The notes below the pieces were generated by a model. It was not told where the DNA came from. It did no database searches and worked only from the letters and a program-made list of their open reading frames with translations. A DNA stretch of 64,000 bases from Syntrophobacterales bacterium (GTDB lineage: Bacteria; Desulfobacterota; Syntrophobacteria; Syntrophobacterales; Thermodesulforhabdaceae), in the NCBI GenBank assembly GCA_026417655.1, contig JAOACS010000020.1:1-64000 (forward strand). The letters run 5' to 3'. Below are positions 23,031 through 29,225 of the stretch, piece by piece (within the stretch, counting starts at the first letter, position 1; each line of letters starts with the position of its first letter). A program made the translations under genes and the position numbers.

Positions 23031-23150
23031 ACTATCTCCGCCGCTTTCTATTAAACAACTCGCTTCTACGATGCCACATTGGAAGAAAATCGTTCAAAAG
23101 TCAATAATGCAAGGAGTTGAACTCAGGACGTTGGCCTTTCATTTCTTATC

Positions 23151-23179
23151 TTGCCTTATATCGAAGGGTTTTCTATAAA
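23151..23179 (+). promoter_or_regulatory. Candidate sigma-70 promoter of the SH3-domain protein gene
   Basis: TTGCCT (23151-23156), a 17-nt spacer and TATAAA (23174-23179) lie about 60 nt before the chosen start codon. The -10 is a 5 of 6 match. Confidence 0.45.
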
Positions 23180-23239
23180 TGTTTTGATGGAGGAAGGCCC
23201 ACCAAACAATGGATAAACCTTAAAAGAGGGAAAAGAGGA

Positions 23240-23917
23240 ATGCGAGTAAAACCTTGGTGGTTAGCGCTCTGGACTTGTTTATTGCTTGTTTTGGGGTTTA
23301 ACAGGATAGCAGAGGCTGCTACTGAAAGCTTTGTAACCGATCGTGTGGAGATACAGTTTCGTGCAGGTCCTGGTATAAATCATAAACTCATTGGGACGCT
23401 TACAGCCGGTATCCAAGTGGAAGTTAAAAAAGAACAGAGTGGATGGTGCCTGATAGTTCCCAAGGAAGGTCCCTTCCAGGGTAAAGAAGGCTGGGTTCAT
23501 AAAAGGCATATAACCGACACACCTCCAATCGCAAAGGACATGGTTACCTTATTGGAGGAAAATAAAAACCTCAAAACTACCCTAAGCCAATATGAGAGTG
23601 AAATAGCAACCCTTAAACAAACCATAACATCTCTAGAGAAAGCGCTAAATGAATCAAAGAATCAATATTCCAAGCTTCAGGAGGAAGCTTCAGAGTTTTT
23701 AACACTTAAGCAGACTCAGGAAACTCTTAAAAAAAACATAGCCGTATTGCGGGAAGAGAGGGATAAACTACAGGAAGAAAGCAAAAAGGCCATAACCTCT
23801 GAACGTATCCGGTGGTTTCTTGCGGGAGCTGGGGTACTCTTTTTTGGATGGATTCTCGGTATGATCATGGGAAGAAGGCAGCGAAAAAGGGACTATGTTA
23901 TTTCATATTGGAAGTAA
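23240..23917 (+). CDS. SH3b/coiled-coil membrane protein (YgiM/TIGR04211-like)
   Basis: The 225-residue protein has an N-terminal signal or anchor (about 5-27, ending AEA), a bacterial SH3 domain (about 28-95, with VEIQFRAGPG and GWVHKRHI), a long coiled coil (about 110-190) and a C-terminal membrane helix (about 197-215) followed by a basic tail RRQRKR. This order is that of E. coli YgiM and TIGR04211 proteins. I choose the ATG at 23240, which gives a proper signal peptide and has AAGAGGA before it. An upstream ATG at 23117 would add 41 residues without signal character. The function is unknown; SH3b suggests binding to cell-wall peptides. Confidence 0.82.
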   Translation: MRVKPWWLALWTCLLLVLGFNRIAEAATESFVTDRVEIQFRAGPGINHKLIGTLTAGIQVEVKKEQSGWCLIVPKEGPFQGKEGWVHKRHITDTPPIAKDMVTLLEENKNLKTTLSQYESEIATLKQTITSLEKALNESKNQYSKLQEEASEFLTLKQTQETLKKNIAVLREERDKLQEESKKAITSERIRWFLAGAGVLFFGWILGMIMGRRQRKRDYVISYWK

Positions 23918-23969: not shown

Positions 23970-24045
23970 GCGGGCATAGCTCAGTTGGTAGAGCACAAGC
24001 TTCCCAAGCTTGGGGTCGCGGGTTCGAGACCCGTTGCCCGCTCCA
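23970..24045 (+). tRNA. tRNA-Gly, anticodon CCC
   Basis: A complete cloverleaf is readable: acceptor GCGGGCA/TGCCCGC, D-arm GCTC...GAGC, anticodon stem CAAGC/GCTTG with loop TTCCCAA (anticodon CCC), five-base variable loop, T-arm GCGGG-TTCGAGA-CCCGT, and an encoded CCA end. It precedes the rimP-nusA-infB operon, as the initiator tRNA gene metY does in E. coli, although here the tRNA is glycine. Confidence 0.97.
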
Positions 24046-24060
24046 AAGGTGTAAGTAATG

Positions 24061-24208
24061 TTGCTAGGAACTGCGAGGGTGTTTTAGGTTTCCGCTCGCT
24101 GTTTCCTAATGTCCCTTATTGAGGGGGTACTTCTAAAGGATTTAGGAGTGCCTACTTCGATTGGTGGACGGATCAATAATGGGGGAAACGGTGTGGTAAT
24201 TCCATAGC
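24061..24208 (+). ncRNA. Candidate structured RNA of unknown class between tRNA-Gly and rimP
   Basis: The sequence folds by hand into a rod. The outer stem is TTGCTA plus GGAA (24061-24070) with TTCC plus TAGC (about 24200-24208). A long middle stem pairs GTTTCC, CCC and TTATTGA (24101-24122) with TCAATAA and GGGGGAAAC (24173-24189), with a left-hand bulge. The apical hairpin has 10 continuous pairs including G-T pairs (24126-24135 with 24143-24152). A side hairpin GCGAG/CTCGC is also possible near 24073-24099. No reading frame fits. It lacks the signatures I know of tmRNA, RNase P RNA and SRP RNA. The rod with internal loops recalls 6S RNA topology, but that is only a guess. Alternatively it is the leader of rimP-nusA. 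Confidence 0.45.
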
Positions 24209-24244
24209 CTATCGGTTGAACCTGTAAATGATCTTGTTCTACTG

Positions 24245-24278
24245 AAAAGAAGTGGGCGCTTTGCCCACTTCTTTTTTT
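24245..24278 (+). terminator. Strong intrinsic terminator just upstream of rimP
   Basis: Perfect 9-bp arms GAAGTGGGC (24249-24257) and GCCCACTTC (24263-24271) with a 5-nt loop are followed by seven T (24272-24278), and A-rich sequence precedes. It ends 13 nt before the rimP start, so it either ends the tRNA/structured-RNA transcript or works as an attenuator for the operon. Confidence 0.93.
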
Positions 24279-24291
24279 GGGTGAGGTAAAG

Positions 24292-24807
24292 GTGGCCGAT
24301 AAAAGAGATTTCCTAAATGAGTTATGGTCAATGATAGAGCCGGTAGTAAATTCTGAAGGAGTGGAGCTCCTTGAGCTGGAATTTCGTAGAGAACGGCAGG
24401 GTTATGTCCTGAGAATTTTCATAGATCACGAAGAAGGTATAACAATAGAGGACTGTTCCCGAGTGAGTGCTACTGTAAGCGATTTTCTCGATGTTACCGA
24501 TCCTATTCACCACACTTACCACTTAGAAGTATCATCGCCGGGACTCGATAGACCTCTTCGCAAACCAGAGCATTTCACTCGACATCTGGGAAGCATAATC
24601 GTTGTAAAAACATCCTCTCCAATACTTAACAGAAAGAATTTTAAGGGTCTTCTAAAGGAAGCTTCAGAAGAGGAAATAGTTATAGAATGTGACGGAATGA
24701 ATTTCACTATACCTTTGAAGGATATTGATAGAGCAAATCTTTCATATTTCGACACAGAAAAAGCAAAAAGTAAAAACAAGGGAAGGAAAAGACATTCCTT
24801 TTCCTGA
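24292..24807 (+). CDS. rimP: Ribosome maturation factor RimP
   Basis: The 171-residue protein assists 30S subunit assembly. Family blocks are GVELLELEFRRERQGYVLRIFIDHEEGITIEDCSRVSATVSDFLD and the YHLEVSSPGLDRPLRKPEHF signature. I choose GTG at 24292 because GAGG lies just upstream and an earlier in-frame TTG (24277) sits inside the terminator T-run. It is the first gene of rimP-nusA-ylxR-infB. The terminator immediately upstream means expression may depend on readthrough or on a promoter I cannot place. Confidence 0.95.
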   Translation: MADKRDFLNELWSMIEPVVNSEGVELLELEFRRERQGYVLRIFIDHEEGITIEDCSRVSATVSDFLDVTDPIHHTYHLEVSSPGLDRPLRKPEHFTRHLGSIIVVKTSSPILNRKNFKGLLKEASEEEIVIECDGMNFTIPLKDIDRANLSYFDTEKAKSKNKGRKRHSFS

Positions 24808-24826: not shown

Positions 24827-26071
24827 ATGACAACCGAGCTAGCAAGGCTTATTGACCAAGTCAGCAGAGAAAAGGGCATAGAAAGGGGAGTTCTTATTGA
24901 AGCTCTTGAGGAGGCCATAACGACGACAATTAGAAAAAAGTTGGGATCAAAAGCCGACATAATGGTCAAGTGGGACGAGGAAAGAGGTGAAATAGAAGCG
25001 ATTAAGTTTTACAAAGTAGTTGAGGAGGTTAAAGATCCCGAATGGGAAATCTCTCTGGAGGAAGCTTCCCGTTATGATCCTGCTGCAGAAGTGGGGGACG
25101 AAGTTGGTGTCTTACTTGACCCGGAAAAACTTGGGCGCATTGCAGCTCAGACAGCTAAACAGATTATACTCCAGAGGCTTCGAGATGCTGAAAGGGATGC
25201 CGTATATGAAGAATTCAAGCACCGCCGGGGAGAAATAGTCCATGGGGTTGTCCAACGAGTTGACAAAACTGGAATAACTATAAACCTTGGGAAGGTTGAG
25301 GCCTTTTTGCCCATCAAAGAACAGATTCCCCAGGATAATTATAGACCCGGTGATAGGATTAGGGCCTACATTGTGGAGGTTAAAAAATCCGGAAAGGGTC
25401 CCCAAATTGTTGTGAGCCGAACCCACCCGTCCTTTCTTATTCAACTCTTCGCTCTTGAAGTGCCAGAGATTCAGGAAGGTATTGTGAGTATTATCGCGGC
25501 GGCGAGAGAACCGGGATCGAGAGCCAAGATTGCGGTAGTTTCCAAGGATCCATCCGTAGATCCCATAGGAGCTTGTGTTGGAGTCAAGGGAAATCGCGTT
25601 CAAAAGGTTGTTCAAGAACTTCGAGGAGAAAGAATTGACATAGTCCAATGGAATGCAGATCCTGCTAAGTTTGTTGTAAATGCCCTCGCCCCAGCAGTGA
25701 TAAGTAAGGTTGTTATAGATCAGACCAACCAAGCGGTTGAAGTTATCGTCCCAGATGACCAGCTCTCCCTAGCCATAGGAAAGCGAGGGCAAAACGTCCG
25801 GCTTGCCGCAAAACTTACCAACTGGAGAATAGATGTTACCAGTGAAACTCGGTATGAGCGACGAAAGGATAGTCGTTACAAGACCTTTTTAAGTCTTACG
25901 AGTATGACGGAAGATCTTGTAGATGCTCTATTCGACGAGGGTATTACAACCCTTGAGGAATTCATAAACACAGACACAAGCTATCTCGAATCAATAATGG
26001 GACTCTCTCGATCCACTATAGAAGGATTAAAGGCAGAGGCTAAAAAAACCCGAGGAAATCCAAGCAGGTAA
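24827..26071 (+). CDS. nusA: Transcription termination/antitermination protein NusA
   Basis: The 414-residue protein binds RNA polymerase and nascent RNA. Domains in order: N-terminal polymerase-binding domain (about 1-128), S1 (about 132-200, RGEIVHGVVQRVDKTGITINLG), two KH domains (about 205-345, with GACVGVKGNRVQKVVQEL and LAIGKRGQNVRLAAKLTNW), and a short helix-hairpin-helix end (about 360-405). It has one such C-terminal element rather than the two acidic repeats of E. coli NusA, which is usual outside gamma-proteobacteria. Confidence 0.97.
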   Translation: MTTELARLIDQVSREKGIERGVLIEALEEAITTTIRKKLGSKADIMVKWDEERGEIEAIKFYKVVEEVKDPEWEISLEEASRYDPAAEVGDEVGVLLDPEKLGRIAAQTAKQIILQRLRDAERDAVYEEFKHRRGEIVHGVVQRVDKTGITINLGKVEAFLPIKEQIPQDNYRPGDRIRAYIVEVKKSGKGPQIVVSRTHPSFLIQLFALEVPEIQEGIVSIIAAAREPGSRAKIAVVSKDPSVDPIGACVGVKGNRVQKVVQELRGERIDIVQWNADPAKFVVNALAPAVISKVVIDQTNQAVEVIVPDDQLSLAIGKRGQNVRLAAKLTNWRIDVTSETRYERRKDSRYKTFLSLTSMTEDLVDALFDEGITTLEEFINTDTSYLESIMGLSRSTIEGLKAEAKKTRGNPSR

Positions 26072-26073
26072 CT

Positions 26074-26334
26074 ATGTCGAAAGAGAAAAAAAGCCCCCAT
26101 ATCCCCATAAGAACCTGCATTGCCTGCGGAATCAAAAGACCCAAGAAGGAGCTTCTAAGGCTCGCCCTCAATGTCGATAAACTTATAGTAATTGACTATT
26201 CACAGAGGATGAGCGGGCGAGGGGCCTACGTATGCCACAGCTGTATACATAGACTTAAACCGAACAAAAGACTCGAAAGAGCCTTCCGAGGACAAGCCAA
26301 AGCACTTAGTATTTCAAATATTCAGTTTGTATAG
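26074..26334 (+). CDS. ylxR: YlxR-family RNA-binding protein
   Basis: The 86-residue basic protein has the YlxR signature: [20 protein letters not shown] at the N-terminus and [11 protein letters not shown] near the middle. It lies 2 bp after nusA and before infB, its conserved position. Work in other bacteria suggests RNA or RNase P binding; the role is not settled. Confidence 0.92.
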
Positions 26335-26351: not shown

Positions 26352-29225
26352 ATGGCACGGTTAAGAGTTCACGAACTTGCAAAGGAATTAAATGTATCAC
26401 CGAAAGAGCTTGTAGACAAAATGAACGAACTTGGCATCCCCTGTAAAAATCACATGAGTATACTGAGCACCGAGGATGCTAACTATCTCCGGCGCTTCTT
26501 CAAAAAATTCGCTAAACCGTCTGGCCGTCCCGTTGATGATATGTTAGCAAGCACCAAAAGGGTTATTGTAAGAAAGAGAACTAGGAAAGAAGATGTAGAA
26601 GTGGAGGAGGAAGAAGAACAACCGGAAGTGGAACAGGAATCCGTGCCTGTGGAAGTGCTTCAAGTAGCTCCCGAAGAAACAATAGAAGATGAGAAGGTTA
26701 CAGGGAAAACAGAGGAAGTAGTAACGTCCAAGGTATTAATAGAGGAAAGGGATATGGGGCCCTTGCAGGAAGCAACGGAAATCTTGACCAGTAAGTCTAC
26801 CGATAAGGAAAAAACCGAACCACAGCTAGAAGTTAGGTCTGAGATCAAAGATATCAAAGAAGAAGTGACTCATGGGCGAGAGAGGGAAGAACCCTCCCTT
26901 GAGGTATCTTCTATCGAAGAAGTCGTAGTAAGACCCTCTGAGACCCCTATATTAGAGGAGGAAGCCGAATTAGACGTAGCGGAAGATCAAGGCATACCGA
27001 CCATACCAACCTCTGAAGAAGCTTTAGAGGTTTCAGAAGATACAGAAGAGAAACGCCAAAGACCTAAAAGGCATAGACGCCGACGTCGAAGAAAGCCAAA
27101 AAAGGAAGAACCTGCAAAGATTATCCAGCTTCCAGAGTTTATCCCTTCTACCGAAGAGGATCATGAAGAAGCTTTAGAAGCAAAGGTAAGAGGTCGTATA
27201 ATCGTTGACGACGAAGCTCCGAAAAAACCTGTAAGGCCTCCTAAGAAATTCCGTACAAGAGAAGATGCTAAAATAGACAGAGAAGAAAGAGAAATAGAAG
27301 CTCCTCCGAAGTTTCTAAAACCTAAGCGTGAAGAAAAAGAGGCCCTCAAAGAAGTCAGTGAAACCTCAACCATCTCCATAGCCAAGGTTGAGTCTCCCGT
27401 TCCTGGCACTCTTCCTCCTAAAACAGCCAAGCGAAAAATTCGTATAGAAGAAGCCATAATCGTTTCTGAACTTGCCCATCAGATGGGAGTAAAGGCCACA
27501 GAGGTCATAAAGAAACTTCTTCTTCTAGGTCTTCCCGTTACAGTTAACCAGGCCATTGATTTTGAAACGGCCTCTCTTGTGGCATCGGAATTCGGTTATG
27601 AAGTTGAGAAAAAAGGTATTGAGGAGGAAGCGATTCTTGCATCACAGGAGGATCGTCCAGAAGACTTAAGGCCACGTCCTCCTGTTGTTACCGTAATGGG
27701 GCACGTGGACCACGGTAAAACATCGCTTCTTGACGCTATACGTCACACCAATGTAACATCTGCTGAAGCAGGGGGAATCACTCAACATATTGGTGCATAC
27801 CATGTGCATTTAGAAAAGGGCGATATCGTATTCCTTGACACTCCTGGTCATGAGGCCTTCACCGCCATGAGGGCAAGGGGTGCAAAGGTCACCGATATAG
27901 TGATCCTTGTTGTGGCCGCAGACGATGGCGTGATGCAGCAAACAGTTGAGGCGATAAATCATGCAAAGGCAGCCAATGTCCCCATAATTGTTGCTATTAA
28001 CAAGATAGACAAACCCAATGCAAATCCCGAACGGGTAAAGCGTGAACTCTCCGAGCTCGGCCTAATACCGGAAGAATGGGGTGGAAGCACCATAATGGTT
28101 GAGGTATCGGCAAAGAAAAAGATTGGTATCGAGGATCTCTTGGAGATGGTGCTTCTTCAGGCAGAGATTATGGAACTTAAAGCAAATCCTAACAAGGCAG
28201 CTCGAGGCCGTGTTATTGAAGCCAAGCTAGAAAAGGGAAGAGGTTCTGTCGCTACGGTGTTAATTCAGGAAGGCACCTTGAGGGTTGGAGATGCCTTTGT
28301 GTGCGGTGTCCATTACGGTAAAGTCCGAAATATCTTCGATGACAGAGGAGAGAGAATAGAGTCGGCTGGTCCTTCTATGCCGGTAGAAGTAATTGGTCTT
28401 TCAGGCGTGCCCCAAGCAGGCGATGATTTCGCGGTTGTTGCTGACGAAAAACAGGCTCGAACCATCGCAGAGCATCGCTTGAGAAAACAGCGAGAAAGAG
28501 AAATCTCTCTCTCCACAAAGGTTACCCTCGAAAAGCTTTATGAGCAGATACGGGAGGGTCAGCTTAAAGAACTCAATCTTATTCTTAAAACCGATGTCCA
28601 AGGCTCCTTAGAAGCTCTTACCGAGGCTATCAGGAAGCTCTCACATCCGGAGATAAAAATTAACATAATTCACTCTGCAACGGGAGCAATTAACGAAACC
28701 GATATAATGCTAGCCTCGGCATCTAATGCTATCGTTATTGGTTTCAATGTACGGCCCGATGCTAAGGTTGAAGAACTTGCCCAGAGGGAAAAGATTGATG
28801 TGAGGTTTTACAATGTTATCTACCAGCTAATCGACGATATTAAGGCGGCGATGGTCGGTCTGCTGGAGCCTGAATATCAGGAAAAGGTGCTTGGACGTGC
28901 AGAGGTTCGACAAACATTTCATATCTCCAAGGTAGGGACAGTAGCTGGTTGCTACGTTTTAAATGGTGTGGTCCAACGAAGTGCAAAGGTAAGGGTGCTA
29001 AGAGATCAAGTAGTGGTTTACGACGGAAGGATCGCATCTCTTAAACGATTTAAAGAAGATGCTCGAGAAGTTAAAGCTGGCTTTGAATGTGGTATACTTA
29101 TTGAAAACTTTAATGACATCAAGGTCGGCGACATTCTAGAAGTCTACGTTATGGAGGCAACCAAACCATCCATTGAAGGGATCTCAGCTCAGGAAACTAG
29201 GGAAGATTCACAGGATAAAAGGTAA
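26352..29225 (+). CDS. infB: Translation initiation factor IF-2
   Basis: This 957-residue GTPase delivers initiator tRNA. There is an IF2N module at 1-50, a long Glu/Lys-rich low-complexity linker (about 75-355) with a very basic [12 protein letters not shown] patch, and a second IF2N module (about 360-415). The G domain has G1 GHVDHGKT (about 449), G3 DTPGH (about 495) and G4 NKID (about 550), followed by the beta-barrel and C-terminal fMet-tRNA domains. The length is large mainly because of the linker, as in many delta-proteobacteria. Confidence 0.98.

Follow-up and report, generated by a model that had tools for sequence, protein, structure and literature searches.

The closest described system is the rimP-leader, an attenuator reported by Naville and Gautheret (2010): a terminator of the type GGGc..gCCC located directly before rimP, the top-ranking gene among those predicted to be under attenuation (PMC2965389). 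Only the bare terminator was described: for the general rimP-leader neither a larger conserved element nor a visible antiterminator was reported, and NusA was the regulator favoured by its authors (PMC2965389). In several Gammaproteobacteria a further terminator lies upstream of the first, together with a possible antiterminator (PMC2965389). In Escherichia coli the operon begins with the tRNA gene metY, terminators t1 and t2 lie between this gene and rimP, and RNase III sites are present (PMC6511841); cleavage by RNase III between metY and rimP releases the tRNA and starts mRNA decay, according to reference 20 as cited in PMC6511841. In Streptococcus agalactiae a terminator located before rimP halts transcription 31 nt from its start, and feedback by NusA was proposed (PMC4448216).

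The window analysed here (64,000 nucleotides of contig JAOACS010000020.1 from a Syntrophobacterales bacterium) features a tRNA-Gly(CCC) gene followed by rimP, and the original prediction placed a structured non-coding RNA in the gap between the two. Fold stability and covariation among relatives bear this out: the gap holds a real, new RNA domain, termed here the core, that is widely distributed within one phylum, where dozens of related sulfate reducers carry it. Its most probable role, at a probability of roughly 0.6, is that of a cis-acting leader or attenuator setting read-through into rimP-nusA-infB in Desulfobacterota. In this arrangement rimP would be the first gene of the controlled operon rimP-nusA-(ylxR)-infB, whose other members are presumably nusA, a ylxR-like gene and infB, as recognized from their sequences (Table 1). 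The gene upstream of tRNA-Gly (23117-23917) resembles one for a membrane protein with an SH3 domain and a coiled coil. No consensus promoter was found in the 52 nt that separate it from tRNA-Gly.

Table 1. Features of the tRNA-Gly to infB region, in positions of the window
Feature	Positions	Strand	Basis
tRNA-Gly(CCC), CCA encoded	23970-24045	+	ARAGORN; Rfam RF00005, 68.8 bits
Lineage-specific 5' extension (tRNA to core)	24046-24110	+	comparison with relatives
Invariant UCCC at core start	24112-24115	+	CCC invariant in scored cells of 59 sequences
Helix P2 (strands 1 and 2), UUGAGG 24119-24124 / CUUCGA 24155-24160	24119-24160	+	
Candidate antiterminator strand GCCUACUUC (strand 2 of P2)	24150-24158	+	complementary to 24249-24257
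Helix P3, 24161-24168 (UUGGUGGA) / 24238-24245 (UCUACUGA), enclosing a variable domain	24161-24245	+	
Inner helix P3a, 24170-24175/24229-24234, and variable domain within	24170-24234	+	constrained fold
Intrinsic terminator (strands 3 and 4), GAAGUGGGC-loop-GCCCACUUC-T7, type GGGc..gCCC; stem 24249-24257/24263-24271	24249-24278	+	
rimP, GTG start at 24292	24292-24807	+	HMM match, E = 1.4e-62
Presumed nusA	24827-26071	+	ORF list; nusA synteny in relatives
Presumed ylxR-like ORF	26074-26334	+	ORF list
Presumed infB	26352-29225	+	ORF list

Comparison of 59 relatives delimits the conserved core to positions 24111-24278. The gaps share a 5' part composed of UCCCUU.UUGAGG, a variable hairpin and GC.UACUUCGAUUAGUGGA, and a 3' part in which a variable domain is followed by UCUGCUAA and by the terminator GAAGUGGGC...GCCCACUUUUUU. 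A hand reading of these blocks gave helix P2 (UUGAGG/CUUCGA), helix P3 (UUAGUGGA../..UCUGCUAA) and the terminator. All their pairs form in the window, where the fold constrained to P2 and P3 lies at most 4.1 kcal/mol above the minimum. Inner helix P3a is common to the nearest relatives, and its GGATCA...TGATC is present also in locus L003. Families f11 and f55 (L079-L096) depart from this in the 3' half of the RNA, which has CCCCGAGAU...AGUCUUGGAUUUUCCCGG. An alternative helix, P1', can form between the invariant UCCC and GGA in the 5' strand of P3, so the core may have two states, of which P1' may be the alternative one. The RNAalifold consensus pairs UCCCU with AG.GGA in this manner in place of P3, and by eye P1' seems the better of the two in the f11/f55 group. 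P3 covaries, whereas no covariation of its own was found for P1', in which 17 cells fail at its two variable pairs.

In an alignment of 29 sequences made with MAFFT and not fitted to any structure, 94.6% of the cells are paired, a value that falls to about 55% or less when the structure is slid by one to three columns. A covariance model, R1, served to enlarge the set. In a collection of 81 aligned matches, which includes three spurious ones to the minus strand of the terminator, 142 cells with a double change keep the pair against 43 in shuffles (reached by 0 of 500), and a cleaner set of 59 sequences gives 101 against 32 (0 of 500); both alignments were fitted to a model of the structure and their counts lean towards it. 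Since the slid controls and the unfitted MAFFT alignment give the same pairing, the predicted fold of P2, P3 and terminator is well supported. P2 is paired in 96.8% of cells of a 7-pair helix, with changes from U-G to U-A and C-G and from U-A to C-G. The corresponding value for P3 is 88.5%, and both sides change in five of its ten pairs, for example from A-U to U-A and from U-A to G-C and A-U. The terminator is paired in 98% of cells, with changes from U-A to C-G and from C-G to U-A.

The gap sequence is also more stable than its shuffles, both over 24046-24276 with the terminator (z = -6.0) and over 24061-24208 alone (z = -4.3), with none of 200 shuffles equally stable. The latter interval, given originally as the extent of the RNA, covers P2 and misses the 3' half, namely the 3' strand of P3 and the terminator. 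Three nested stems had been drawn in it. The apical hairpin 24126-24135/24143-24152 is present with all its 10 pairs in the minimum free energy (MFE) fold of the whole gap, and corresponds to the variable top of P2 (24126-24152), whose length and sequence vary among relatives. The middle stem 24101-24122/24173-24189 retains 7 pairs in that fold (24101-24107/24183-24189) and is not conserved, while the outer stem 24061-24070/24200-24208 neither forms there nor is conserved. The lack of conservation of both follows from the position of their 5' strand (most of it for the middle stem) in the 5' extension, which is 65 nt long here, 24 nt in a genome of the same genus and 7-14 nt in other genomes of the family, and whose sequence is unrelated in all of these. 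The proposed check for compensatory changes among relatives gave a positive result, for a fold of P2, P3 and terminator that differs from the one drawn; the consensus fold of these elements is no rod. The terminator expected downstream is found at its place in Table 1, and the proposed absence of a coding frame holds, no frame having a conserved start, length or peptide. In the window (24148-24207) and in relatives a start codon before ACT-TCR-ATT-AGT-GGA would give a mini-ORF M(P/L)TSISG. Such a start lies at most four codons before ACT-TCR-ATT in 22 of 59 sequences; a leader peptide was rejected because there is no common length or ending and the start codon is absent in the other sequences.

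Within the core, strand 2 of P2, GCCUACUUC, can form nine of nine pairs with the terminator arm GAAGUGGGC in the window, G-U pairs counted. Over 59 sequences 92.2% of the cells of this candidate antiterminator are paired and no convincing covariation was detected; where the terminator arm is GAAGCGGG, column 115 mostly remains A and yields A-C mismatches with the antiterminator strand. The pyrimidines at alignment columns 110 and 113 suit the antiterminator, and P2 leaves them bulged or poorly paired. The antiterminated state has a median stability 4.3 kcal/mol lower than the terminated one, and is the more stable of the two in more than 10 sequences. Complementarity of the upstream sequence to the terminator arm exceeds that of 95% of its own shuffles in 29 of the 59 sequences, a count that is not independent of P2. 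The pairing of 24150-24158 with 24249-24257 as an antiterminator in most members is suggestive, short of proof. In families f11 and f55 (L079-L096) it is instead a conserved ACCCGCUUCC just before the core that is complementary to the terminator arm, GGAAGUGGG; this strand is similar, too, to the 3' acceptor strand of tRNA-Gly.

A search with covariance model R2 (E <= 2.6e-9), covering 394 Desulfobacterota genomes, found the core in at least 74 of them, which fall in 21 families as counted from the match list. Weaker R2 matches are mixed, many consisting only of the terminator before rimP with a promoter-like stretch just upstream (for example L094, L097, L103, L109). A strict two-block pattern searched across 84,980 species matched 50 contigs, 48 of which are labelled as Desulfobacterota, Thermodesulfobacteriota or Deltaproteobacteria groups and two as 'Proteobacteria' only; the carriers include Desulfacinum infernum, Desulfoferrobacter suflitae and Desulfocarbo indianensis. 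Some of the weaker R2 matches, such as two Desulfarculus-type loci, keep the core and lack the terminator, so that the core may act there by another route. Their near-identical conserved blocks (L099:1234-1323, L105:1249-1392) come without a rimP-leader terminator. Minimal rimP leaders are found in family f12 (L094, L097, L098, L102), where the core is absent, a promoter-like stretch lies directly upstream and GGGUCUGCUGA (or GGUCUGCUGA) is retained before the terminator. In family f70 (L107, L118, L121) tRNA-Gly(CCC) likewise adjoins rimP, with a promoter-like stretch and only a minimal leader between them, after a T-run in two of the three loci.

The surroundings of the core were compared in loci retrieved by a DNA search of 60 relatives. 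The order tRNA-Gly(CCC), gap, rimP, nusA is kept in all sufficiently long loci fetched at the order and class levels. Upstream DNA is present for 74 core-bearing loci, and tRNA-Gly(CCC) stands directly before the core in all of them. The script returned four exceptions: L060 and L081 are contig ends, the second showing a truncated tRNA-Gly, and L103 and L106 are false matches to the core. The core begins immediately after the encoded CCA, with a spacer of 0 nt, in 17 loci. Downstream, all loci examined have rimP on the same strand, mostly 15-70 nt from the terminator end. Family f11 has genes inserted between terminator and rimP, for example presumed genes for a SafE-like membrane protein or for toxin-antitoxin-like products; core and terminator both remain behind tRNA-Gly, and a same-strand rimP comes no more than about 1.7 kb further on. 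These inserts suggest that some operons may use other promoters. The varied same-strand inserts before rimP in seven f11 loci (L079, L080, L083, L085, L087, L090, L096) give the region the appearance of an insertion hot spot.

In the leader reading favoured here, transcription would start upstream of tRNA-Gly and the tRNA would be cut off from the transcript. The nascent leader is predicted, from covariation, to fold into P2 and P3 beside the terminator directly before rimP. Expression of the operon would then require read-through of this terminator, because in most genomes it lies only about 15-70 nt from rimP and the core is close to the tRNA. The four strands may form a 1-2/2-3/3-4 attenuator: 1-2 plus 3-4 would lead to termination, while pairing of the terminator arm with the 3' strand of P2 (2-3), possible in most members, would extend P3 as an antiterminator. 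The input would be a product of the operon sensed through the core, with NusA as the first candidate by analogy with the proposals for E. coli and S. agalactiae. The leader reading draws on the covariation of P2, P3 and terminator far above shuffles and slid controls, on the position of the core between tRNA-Gly and rimP in all complete loci at the order and class levels and across 21 families, on the rimP-leader signature of the terminator and on the presence of rimP downstream despite inserts. It is also consistent with the antiterminator pairing, the pyrimidines at columns 110 and 113 and the near energies of the two states, and with the E. coli operon, which likewise begins with a tRNA and two terminators and is proposed to be under NusA feedback. 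Against it stand the lack of antiterminator covariation, the two Desulfarculus-type loci without terminator, the f11 inserts and the missing consensus promoter.

Several of these observations would also suit a stand-alone RNA that is made on one transcript with tRNA-Gly, released when the 3' end of the tRNA is processed, ended by its own terminator and active in trans, with rimP as merely the next gene. The unbroken link to tRNA-Gly(CCC), the 17 loci without spacer, the genes interposed before rimP in one family, and the two loci where the core without a conserved terminator suggests a role of its own all favour such an RNA. It is nevertheless unlikely, since all loci examined, those with inserts too, have a same-strand rimP downstream, and since the terminator before rimP occurs without the core in other families, which assigns the terminator to rimP. 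Matches in the window's own genome, moreover, are limited to the locus itself and the minus strand of its terminator.

A processing or stability element is a doubtful proposition. The core would serve as a cleavage platform, of the RNase III type or for tRNA 3' maturation, releasing tRNA-Gly and determining what becomes of the downstream mRNA; it does abut the tRNA 3' end, and RNase III cuts between metY and rimP in E. coli in the work cited within PMC6511841. The short length of P2 and P3 and the conserved terminator right behind the core argue against this role, as does the sequence conservation of internal loops and of UCCC, which goes beyond the need of a double-strand-specific nuclease.

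It is improbable that the leader acts as a tRNA-coupled riboswitch, sensing the state of the tRNA-Gly of its own transcript and setting the expression of NusA and IF2, in which case the UCCA 3' end of the tRNA and the UCCC of the core would compete for pairing with UGGA in P3. Such a device would recall a T-box in having tRNA-Gly beside a leader with a terminator and a UGGA complementary to the tRNA 3' end, but here the tRNA is encoded in cis and UGGA drifts to UGGG, CGGA or AGGA in some members; neither an Rfam match to the T-box (RF00230) nor a recognizable stem I or T-box sequence was found in the leader. The suggestion of a diverged 6S RNA, prompted by length and a long structured hairpin only, is refuted by the clear 6S RNA of this genome on another contig (G000:C25:81955-82129, L001; 95.4 bits to RF00013), by the absence of a 6S match at the locus even at E <= 10 and by a consensus fold that is no rod with a central bubble.

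The search for known families gave no Rfam 15 match in the window or its relatives, even at relaxed E-values, beyond chance matches driven by terminator or tRNA; the check that had been proposed thus supports an RNA missing from Rfam. No earlier description of a rimP leader in Deltaproteobacteria was found in the literature searched. The Gammaproteobacteria rimP leader RF01770 (102 positions), found in the metY-rimP spacer of E. coli, likewise lies behind a tRNA gene and has one or more terminators. At its gathering score it has no match in the window or the whole genome. Conversely, the E. coli spacer, to which RF01770 gives 102 bits, yields no R2 match at E <= 10. Given this lack of cross-matches and a terminator of the known rimP-leader kind, the core is a new domain placed before a known terminator. 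The original suggestion of something new holds in the form of a new RNA domain; the link of its terminator to the rimP-leader attenuator had been overlooked. A structured 5' leader with a terminator is shared also with ribosomal-protein and NusA-type autoregulatory leaders, as is the kind of operon, coding for ribosome assembly, elongation and initiation factors; NusA is here a candidate for the signal by analogy with E. coli and S. agalactiae. The core could become a new Rfam family, unusual in being tied so strictly to a single tRNA gene, and a conserved, covarying domain linked to the rimP terminator provides, in a phylum with many genomes, a concrete object for the study of its binding factor and of a possible feedback on NusA and IF2. 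Like the general rimP-leader, the locus has a GGGc..gCCC terminator with a U-tract directly before rimP-nusA-infB; in contrast to it, that terminator is preceded by some 130 nt in which structure is conserved and covaries, and an alternative pairing is possible, so that the core represents a new and larger domain of the known rimP-leader attenuator.
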